Shown here: piece by piece, positions 30,619 to 50,932 of the stretch
How the letters are laid out: each line of letters opens with the position of its first letter
Numbering within the stretch: the stretch's first letter is position 1
Source: Eggerthella sp.
GTDB lineage: Bacteria; Actinomycetota; Coriobacteriia; Coriobacteriales; Eggerthellaceae
Direction of reading: 5' to 3'
Length of the DNA stretch: 64,000 bases
Assembly: GCA_030540085.1 (NCBI GenBank)
Contig: JAUNWY010000005.1
Coordinates: 1-64,000, forward strand
Made by a program: the position numbers and the translations under genes
The notes under the pieces: generated by a model
The model's input: the letters and a program-made list of their open reading frames with translations, nothing else
What the model was told of the DNA's origin: nothing
Database searches by the model: none

Positions 30619-32205
30619 GTGGCAGATCCTAAGGTAAAGCGTGTTCTTATGTCGGTAACGGACAAGACGGGCGTGGTTGAATTCGCTCGTGCTCTGTCCG
30701 AAGAGTTCGGTGCGCAGATCATCTCTACGGGTGGCACGGCTCGCGTCATTGCGGAGGCGGGCATTCCCGTTACCCCCATCGATGAGGTAACCCAATTCCC
30801 GGAGATGATGGATGGTCGTGTGAAGACGCTTCACCCGGCAGTTCATGGTGGTCTTCTTGCTAAGCGCGATAACCCCGAGCATATGGCTCAGGCCGCTGAG
30901 CACGGCATCGAGATGATCGACATGGTGGTCGTGAACCTCTATGCATTCGAGAAAACGGTAGAGTCCGGAGCCGATTTCGGTACCTGCATTGAAAACATCG
31001 ACATCGGTGGCCCTTCTATGCTGCGTTCTGCTGCTAAGAATTTTGCAAGTGTTGCCGTTGTCACCGATCCTGCAAGCTACGGAAACATTCTTGCTGAAAT
31101 GCGCGCAAACGATGGCGCAACCACGCTTGCAACGCGTACCCAGCTTGCTCTTCGTGTGTTCCAGACCACCAATGCTTACGACGGCGCTATCGCTGCATGG
31201 CTTGGCAACCAGCTGGGTGAGGCAGACGAGCAGTTCCCCGAGGCGCTTTCTGTTGACCTTGTTAAGCAGCAGGGTCTTCGCTATGGCGAGAACCCGCACC
31301 AGAGCGCTGCGTTCTATCGCGTCCCCGAGTTTGCTACGCCGCATTCTTTGGTTAACGCCAAGCAGCTCAACGGCAAGGAGCTCTCTTACAACAACATCCT
31401 TGACACCGACGCATGCTGGACGCTCGCTCGCGAGTTTGACGAGCCCGCCGTTGTGATCTTGAAGCATCAGAATCCCTGCGGTTCTGCAGCCGCCGCTGAT
31501 GTTGCCACGGCTTACGACAAGGCATTTGCTTGCGACCCGAAGAGCGCTTTTGGCGGTATCATTGCCGTCAATGCAGAGGTTACCCTCGAATTGGTTGAGC
31601 ATATCAATGAGAACAAACAGTTTGTAGAGGTCCTCATCGCTCCTTCATATGAGCCAGCTGCTCTTGAGCTGCTTCAGCAGAAGAAGAACCTGCGCGTTCT
31701 GGAGACTGGCGGGGTAGATGCTCCTGCTGCAATTGAATTCCGTTCTGTAGATGGTGGTATGCTCGCTCAGCAGGTAGACCGCGTGGATGAGGATCCTGCG
31801 GAGTTCACGGTGCCTACCAAGAAGAAGCCTACCGAAGACGAATTGCATGAAATGCTCTTTGCTTGGAAGGTTTGCAAGGGCGTTAAGTCTAACGCGATTT
31901 TGGTCTCGAAGGATCATGCTGGTATTGGCATGGGCCCTGGTCAGCCTAACCGTGTTGACTCTGCAAAGCTCGCTTGCGAGCGTGCGCACGAGGCGTGCGA
32001 GCGCATGGGCGTTCCGGCAGAAGGCCTGGTATGCGCATCTGACGCATTCTTCCCGTTCCGCGATAACGTTGATACGTTGGCGGGCTATGGCGTTAAGGCT
32101 ATTATCCAGCCTGGCGGTTCCATCCGCGACGAAGAGGTTATCGAGGCTTGCGATGAGCACGGCATTGCCATGGTGTTCACCGGTCATCGTCACTTCCGTC
32201 ACTAA
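30619..32205 (+). CDS. purH: Bifunctional AICAR transformylase / IMP cyclohydrolase
   Basis: This encodes 528 residues starting with the GTG at 30619 (GGAAAGG upstream). The N-terminal IMP cyclohydrolase has [24 protein letters not shown] and NLYAFEKTV. The C-terminal AICAR transformylase has [24 protein letters not shown] and the [17 protein letters not shown] segment. It carries out the last two steps to IMP. Length is typical. The strongly folded region described next begins only 5 bases after its stop codon. Confidence 0.96.
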
Positions 32206-32210
32206 CTAGG

Positions 32211-32533
32211 TTGTGCCGTTCTGCCGAACGGCACAAGACGCACGAAACGCGATGACGCTGCGCGAGCCCCTGACGGCACAGCTGTCGGTCCAAGAGGGCT
32301 GGACGTGCGAAGCACGCCTGGCAATCCTGCTCAGCAAAGCTGCGCAGGATGCACCTGCTCGGGTGCATAGTTTGGAACCGAACATGCCACTGGCATGTTC
32401 GCCCCGCCATCTGCACTCGTCAGGGGCTCGCTCGCTGTTTCGTCCGAGAATGAGAGCTTTGATATTTTCGCTCGTTGACTCATTGCGTCAACGAGCGAAT
32501 CTCTAAACGCCCTTCGGGGCGTTTCTTTTGTTT
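32211..32533 (+). ncRNA. Candidate structured RNA, no known family recognised
   Basis: There is no plausible gene in this stretch, yet nearly every segment pairs. Perfect helices: 32211-32220 with 32227-32236 (10 bp); 32242-32248 with 32437-32443 (7 bp); 32262-32275 with 32418-32431 (14 bp, 142 bases enclosed). Inside that closing helix are 32304-32308/32312-32316, 32324-32330/32344-32350 with an inner 4-bp stem, 32351-32355/32362-32366, and 32379-32388/32392-32401 (10 bp). After it comes 32467-32479/32487-32499 (13 bp), then the terminator at 32505. This looks like a multi-branched RNA transcribed after purH or from its own start. tmRNA, RNase P and SRP signatures are absent. Confidence 0.5.
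32505..32533 (+). terminator. Terminator closing the folded region
   Basis: 8-bp stem AAACGCCC with GGGCGTTT, stable TTCG tetraloop, CTTTTGTTT tail. Confidence 0.85.
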
Positions 32534-32600
32534 ACGGCAAGAGCATTTGAGCTGCCTTGCCCGTTCGTTTTATGACGGTTAGGGCATCGGGTTTGGTGTC

Positions 32601-50835: not shown

Positions 50836-50932
50836 TGGCGGAGACGTGTGCGAATCGAACACACCTGAGACGTTCTGCGCGCCTCTCAGCGGCTTTGAAG
50901 GCCGTGGGGCCCACCAGGACCCATCCGTCTCC
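50836..50932 (-). tRNA. selC: tRNA-Sec (anticodon UCA)
   Basis: 97 bases including an encoded CCA. The acceptor GGAGACGG pairs with the 3' strand, the D stem has six pairs (GGGTCC/GGGCCC) around TGGT, the anticodon arm CGGC-CTTCAAA-GCCG carries TCA (template 50896-50898), the long variable arm is CTGAGA/TCTCAG, and the T arm contains TTCGATT. The extended acceptor-T stack, 6-bp D stem and long variable arm are the identity features of bacterial tRNA-Sec, which inserts selenocysteine at UGA with SelB. Confidence 0.93.

Follow-up and report, generated by a model that had tools for sequence, protein, structure and literature searches.

The gene-free, highly folded region behind purH in Eggerthella sp. 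is probably one copy of a non-autonomous palindromic DNA element, mobile or turning over fast and private to the Coriobacteriia. From its many copies and their polymorphism between relatives we classify the family as a new Coriobacteriia-specific REP/MITE-like mobile element, and the element behaves more like mobile DNA than like a lone RNA gene.

The folded region behind purH

The region spans positions 32211-32533 of the window, by which we mean the whole 64,000-nucleotide stretch analysed here; the source genome measures 1.56 Mb and is 80% complete. An earlier note on this DNA had listed six or more helices in this interval, and every one of them is present with sound coordinates. The complementarity also exceeds chance, as that note had proposed. 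The forward strand folds with a minimum free energy of -166 kcal/mol versus a mean of -116 for shuffled sequences (z = -9.0), with none of 100 shuffles folding as well, and folding of the reverse strand is at least as strong (z = -10.0). For the core, the antisense strand gives the more stable fold when treated as DNA too. Between the purH stop codon (32203-32205) and the YbhN-like gene (from 32657) no convincing gene was found, which agrees with the earlier description of a gene-free region. The parts of the region are as follows.

32211-32236, + strand: hairpin 1, the left part of the element, a perfect 11-bp helix (arms 32211-32221 and 32226-32236, TTGTGCCGTTC-TGCC-GAACGGCACAA) 5 nt 3' of the purH stop codon
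32237-32253, + strand: linker from hairpin 1 to the core, 17 nt, longer in this genus than the 5-8 nt found elsewhere
32254-32262, + strand: 5' conserved box GACGCTGCG, near-invariant across the family
32262-32275, + strand: 5' arm of the 14-bp closing stem, variable in primary sequence and conserved in pairing
32276-32281, + strand: 5' side of the conserved internal loop, GCACAG, class A
32323-32402, + strand: three-hairpin interior module (hairpins 32324-32350, 32350-32367 and 32379-32401; helix arms 32324-32335/32339-32350 and 32379-32389/32391-32401)
32411-32417, + strand: 3' side of the conserved internal loop, CTGCACT
32418-32431, + strand: 3' arm of the closing stem, pairing perfectly with 32262-32275 and enclosing 142 bases
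32432-32439, + strand: 3' conserved box TCGCTGTT (family consensus TCGCTGAC), where the core ends
32440-32462, + strand: tail region (family consensus NTTACGAACGACCTGNGA), diverged in the purH copy
32467-32499, + strand: accessory 13-bp hairpin, whose arms (32467-32479 and 32487-32499) bear a degenerate version of the 3' box, CTCGTTGAC
32505-32529, + strand: intrinsic terminator AAACGCCC-TTCG-GGGCGTTT-CTTTT, with its hairpin at 32505-32524 and a short T run

The repeat proper consists of the hairpin at 32211-32236, the core at 32254-32439 and a short tail; it does not include the accessory hairpin and terminator at 32467-32529. Terminators also stand 3' of the element at several other copies in the same genome. 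The three-hairpin interior module occurs in a minority of copies only and is missing from the best-matching copy in the same genome.

A dispersed family in the Coriobacteriia

BLAST of positions 32205-32540 against the source genome returned incomplete copies at several sites, of which one lacks the interior 80 bases, and matches in relatives hit other parts of the region, notably the interior module. The family plan was read from 16 copies aligned by eye and with MAFFT. In gene sense, it runs from a stop codon through a perfect hairpin of 11-13 bp, the GACGCTGCG box, a 14-bp copy-specific stem, a conserved internal loop, a second stem, a variable interior and the mirrored stem to the CTCGCTGAC box and a tail. 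The whole unit of hairpin 1, long-stem core and tail measures about 170-240 bp, with a core of 102-188 nt, and a hairpin of the hairpin 1 type was detected in 86 of 97 copies. The sequence of the long stem is different in almost every copy and its pairing is nevertheless kept. In an alignment made from sequence only, 19 of 22 stem pairs vary on both sides, with a covariation score of 0.62 versus at most 0.17 for slid partners, and the covariation of the outer stem was repeated in a 71-copy alignment.

Hairpin 1 was also considered as an independent resident target, which the data do not support: across 400 kb sampled from a relative, every GTTCCG-type hairpin precedes an intact or degenerate GACGCTGC box. 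At one locus (L019 in G009, upstream of 1536 on the reverse strand) a copy has shrunk to the hairpin, GACGCTGC, eight bases and TCGCTGAC, its core deleted between the two boxes, both of which contain CGCTG. Downstream of the core at four other loci (L110, L087, L080 and L093), the 3' box and tail (CTCGCTGAC ... ACCTG) are repeated in tandem with a spacing of about 30-40 nt, resembling a binding-site array.

Using a covariance model built from the element, we counted 17 copies in the source genome, 41 and 42 in two complete genomes from its own family, and 18 in a third complete genome belonging to a different one. The same model, with few candidates scored per genome, found the element in at least 104 of 296 Coriobacteriia genomes sampled. 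Across a phylum sample of 198 genomes, seven matched, all from two families of the same order, and none of the approximately 180 other actinobacterial genomes sampled carried the element. A search with a 24-nt tail pattern among 84,980 species gave 32 loci, all Eggerthellaceae or Coriobacteriia by title, including Adlercreutzia, Gordonibacter and Paraeggerthella, and cores stand before these tails. Viral contigs, phages and plasmids gave no match in a sequence search, which is weak for an element with diverging stems.

Membership of an Rfam family (raiA, GOLLD, ROOL, HEARO, 6S and others) had been put forward as a check, and no family explains the region: nothing matched at gathering thresholds, and relaxed thresholds gave chance-level matches only. 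Elsewhere in the window, Rfam identifies a selenocysteine tRNA gene at 50840-50932 on the reverse strand (RF01852, 68.6 bits). A literature search returned no description of the element in Coriobacteriia. A survey of structured RNAs in the human microbiome names one Collinsella motif (PMC8040213), which at 51 bp and upstream of L7/L12 differs from the present element. As far as the databases and literature searched show, the family is previously unlisted, Coriobacteriia-specific and unnamed.

Placement behind stop codons, gain and loss

The neighbouring genes of 97 copies were called by simple codon-usage scoring; longest-ORF calls are confused by antisense ORFs in this GC-rich DNA. The upstream gene runs in the same direction as the copy in 88 of the 92 decided cases. 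Where an upstream stop codon was called and the hairpin resolved, at most 6 nt separate the two in 54 of 65 copies, including a few whose hairpin overlaps the stop. Of the downstream genes, 68 are in sense and about 20 antisense, indicating that placement follows the upstream gene. L035 (G000:C7:39221-39334), one of the few copies that are antisense to their neighbours, lies upstream of a panC-like gene. Copies also run with the replication fork, whose direction was taken from the GC-skew flip for the first complete genome and from strand blocks for the second: 41 of 42 and 39 of 41 are co-directional (80 of 83 together), whereas among genes sampled over 400 kb of the first genome only 75% are (p = 1e-4). 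As the upstream genes are mostly core genes, which are prone to lie on the leading strand, this bias does not yet prove replication-linked insertion.

Many of these upstream genes are common to different genera. From their C-terminal sequences we take them to be DAHP synthase, groEL, purH, pheS, aspS, greA, branched-chain aminotransferase, aspartokinase, prs, tsf, frr, gap, rplX and others. The same upstream gene recurs across genera far more often than random placement predicts. Element types group by genome and not by locus, a pattern suggesting that favoured genes have gained the element, or had its core converted, more than once. The proposal that the region is a 3' regulatory element of the purine operon specifically is not supported, since copies trail dozens of unrelated genes and other purH genes are without the element. 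It is present behind purH in genomes G000 and G023 and absent in G009 and G020, where a gap of 22-37 nt leads to ybhN and hairpin 1 is missing too; purH of G003, from the same genus, also has no element.

Gain and loss were followed at two loci, A and B, across close species of the g49 genus, which is probably Collinsella, with upstream genes mostly 93-98% identical. Locus B holds an ABC permease gene followed by that of its ATPase, and in nearly all close species the two overlap (ATGA) as CATGATTAATTCGGTAATG. In G184 and G271, hairpin, core and tail sit between the permease stop codon and the ATPase, the ATPase start is now a GTG behind GGAGG, and the downstream protein continues identically. 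In G259 only the two ends of the element are left, as a deletion scar. The insert spans GTTCCG to CGGAAC, a terminal inversion of 6 bp only, and the junctions show neither a recognisable target-site duplication nor long terminal inverted repeats. The insertion at locus B is plain; its alleles may have moved by recombination between species, which may account for part of the presence/absence pattern. At locus A the element is present in about half of the close species and one has a scar, and behind an OTC-like gene its presence also varies between species.

Copies within a genome also bear signs of exchange. In the source genome, two unrelated genes, groEL and an ilvC-like gene, are trailed by copies with 94% identity across 286 bp, beginning just behind the stop codons. 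Two copies in G184 have cores that are 98% identical and different hairpin 1 sequences, so cores and hairpins can be swapped independently. Most copies per genome are diverged (mean of about 60% identity in one genome), unlike a recent burst. Exact multi-copy occurrence as an inserted repeat had been named in advance as grounds against a structured RNA; the multiple copies are largely as described there, and the exactness is not, as the copies have diverged.

Other repeats occupy the same positions. Behind the OTC-like gene, a second long-stem repeat type of the g49 genus (L216 and L237), with conserved CTGCAAGGTTG ... TTTGCCTCCCTCT ... GGGTTTGCTCCTTT ... CGATCTTGCAG within a variable outer stem, lies in the same place as the studied element in other species. 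Further palindromes stand behind the same stop codons at locus B in G093 (L303) and at locus A (L251 and L262), for example a nearly perfect inverted repeat some 100 bp long (GTCTGTCCTCATCGGGGACGGGG... with its complement) and the sequence GTGACAAAGGGACAGTCCCTTTGTCAC. The 3' ends at loci A and B seem to be hot spots for palindromic inserts.

DNA or RNA: helix constraint, known systems and mode of movement

Selection on an RNA helix tolerates G-U pairs and purges A-C, whereas without such selection both arise equally. Over ten variable pairs of the outer stem in 94 copies we counted 853 Watson-Crick pairs, 22 G-U, 22 A-C and 43 other mispairs, and in hairpin 1 the counts were 997, 10, 16 and 10. 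Together the two helices hold 32 G-U against 38 A-C and are strand-symmetric, whereas intrinsic terminators at the same loci, detected in the same symmetric way, hold 48 G-U against 15 A-C (Fisher p = 4e-4), a difference to be read with the small number of mispairs in mind and with the caveat that a requirement for perfect-duplex RNA could lower G-U but would not raise A-C. Set against the terminators, the helices look constrained as DNA rather than as RNA. In one class of internal loop both sides read GGCACC, which gives C-A mismatches on the gene strand and would give tandem G-T on the other. Judged from these patterns, the helices behave as DNA features, either through recognition of DNA hairpins or through a register kept by template switching. 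Template switching may be the only source of covariation in the stems, but it would not account for the conserved mismatched internal loops, which argue that it is not the whole story. Compensatory changes in the closing helix, which the earlier note had expected to support an RNA, do exist; given the mispair symmetry, taken alone they are no evidence of RNA function.

These counts bear on both RNA readings. A discrete new structured ncRNA gene behind purH would agree with the strong folding and covariation, but it is highly improbable in view of the dispersed copies behind many genes, the lack of an Rfam match, the mispair symmetry and the purH genes without the element in close species. The large stand-alone ncRNA of the earlier note is likewise not supported, given the absence of an Rfam match, the approximately 17 dispersed copies in the same genome and helices without G-U excess. 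A cis-acting 3' UTR RNA of housekeeping mRNAs deserves more weight, although we regard it as unlikely. The post-stop hairpin would slow ribosomes or exonucleases, the core would stabilise, process or terminate the transcript, and selection would keep the copies. Sense orientation, the tight distance to the stop codon and strong covariation agree with this, as do the functions of the upstream genes (translation, chaperones, tRNA synthetases, purine and amino acid metabolism), which often recur from genus to genus, and the terminators that trail copies in the source genome. E. coli REPs at most 15 nt from a stop codon have also been reported to stall ribosomes and reduce translation (PMC12306157). 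Against it, the helices have no excess of G-U over A-C although terminators at the same loci do, the antisense strand folds better, and the same gene occurs with or without the element between close species. An RNA role at mRNA 3' ends is possible.

The mobile-DNA reading was compared with known repeats. REPs of the GTAG and CGTC superfamilies, 20-40 bp long and named for these tags, are likewise dispersed extragenic palindromes, mostly by gene 3' ends, with variable stems and likely transcription, and CGTC REPs also have no known dedicated transposase (PMC3733652). REPs are single hairpins, often paired in alternating orientation, whereas the present element joins a post-stop hairpin to a long-stem core with conserved internal loops in a single orientation, and its own genome has no REP-type Y1 transposase. 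Movement of a classical REP/REPIN by a RAYT (Y1 HUH) transposase is very unlikely. It would suit extragenic palindromes just 3' of stop codons, and the near-invariant GACG of the 5' box, mostly 5-8 nt from hairpin 1, is CGTC when read on the opposite strand, and CGTC tags one of the REP superfamilies (PMC3733652). However, the unit far exceeds 20-40 bp, hairpin 1 has 11-13 bp rather than 8-9, CGTC stands at least 5 nt off, and orientations do not alternate. Y1 transposases (PF01797) are absent from the copy-rich genomes G000, G010, G023, G024, G025, G030 and G034 and do not track copy number. With the source genome among those lacking them, RAYT/Y1 is not supported as the present driver. Y1 was the class tested, and no transposase or recombinase was identified for the element.

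BOX elements are modular. The present element resembles them, MITEs and ERIC (RU-1) in being a non-autonomous, intergenic, imperfect palindrome of the 100-250 bp kind with a modular interior and polymorphism between relatives, and like a MITE it is multi-copy, non-coding and variable in presence. It differs in having no clear terminal inverted repeat or target-site duplication, in a far stricter position and orientation relative to stop codons, and in stems that covary. Rfam structured RNAs (raiA, HEARO, GOLLD, ROOL and 6S) share long covarying helices and conserved loops, but none matches at its gathering threshold and the element's helices are strand-symmetric. Integron attC sites, too, lie behind stop codons in a single orientation; their ends are RYYYAAC and GTTRRRY, whereas the conserved ends here are GACGCTGCG and CTCGCTGAC, and the copies sit behind native housekeeping genes rather than cassettes. 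The earlier suggestion of a palindromic mobile remnant fared best of its three proposals: the mobile palindrome stands, and the remnant gives way to a living multi-copy family with gain and loss.

From the position and orientation of the copies, the locus B insertion and scar, and the strand-symmetric pairing, we infer how the element might move. New copies would arise immediately 3' of stop codons, oriented like the gene and the replication fork; they would persist, spread or undergo conversion within the genome, and be lost through internal deletion across the hairpin. An enzyme would recognise or copy the hairpins in the form of single-stranded DNA, probably on the lagging-strand template. 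Once transcribed, the post-stop hairpin would also act on the mRNA end. Such a host effect is plausible given the ribosome stalling by E. coli REPs near stop codons (PMC12306157), and it may explain persistence behind certain genes; the above-chance orthology of upstream genes between genera also fits an old host function. More tentatively, and with some doubt, a composite hairpin element might insert as folded single-stranded DNA, oriented with the fork and set a fixed distance from the stop codon that ends an active gene, by means of an enzyme outside HUH/Y1 and with core exchange that conserves the shape of the stem and not its sequence. If true, such insertion would be a new mechanism of mobility.

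Compensatory stem changes can mimic selection on RNA while mispairs stay strand-symmetric, and the count of G-U against A-C offers RNA discovery pipelines a simple check. How such repeats spread, placed so strictly by stop codon and fork and with no transposase known, is a question that can be tested, and across a major class of gut bacteria many housekeeping genes have their 3' ends reshaped by this family.
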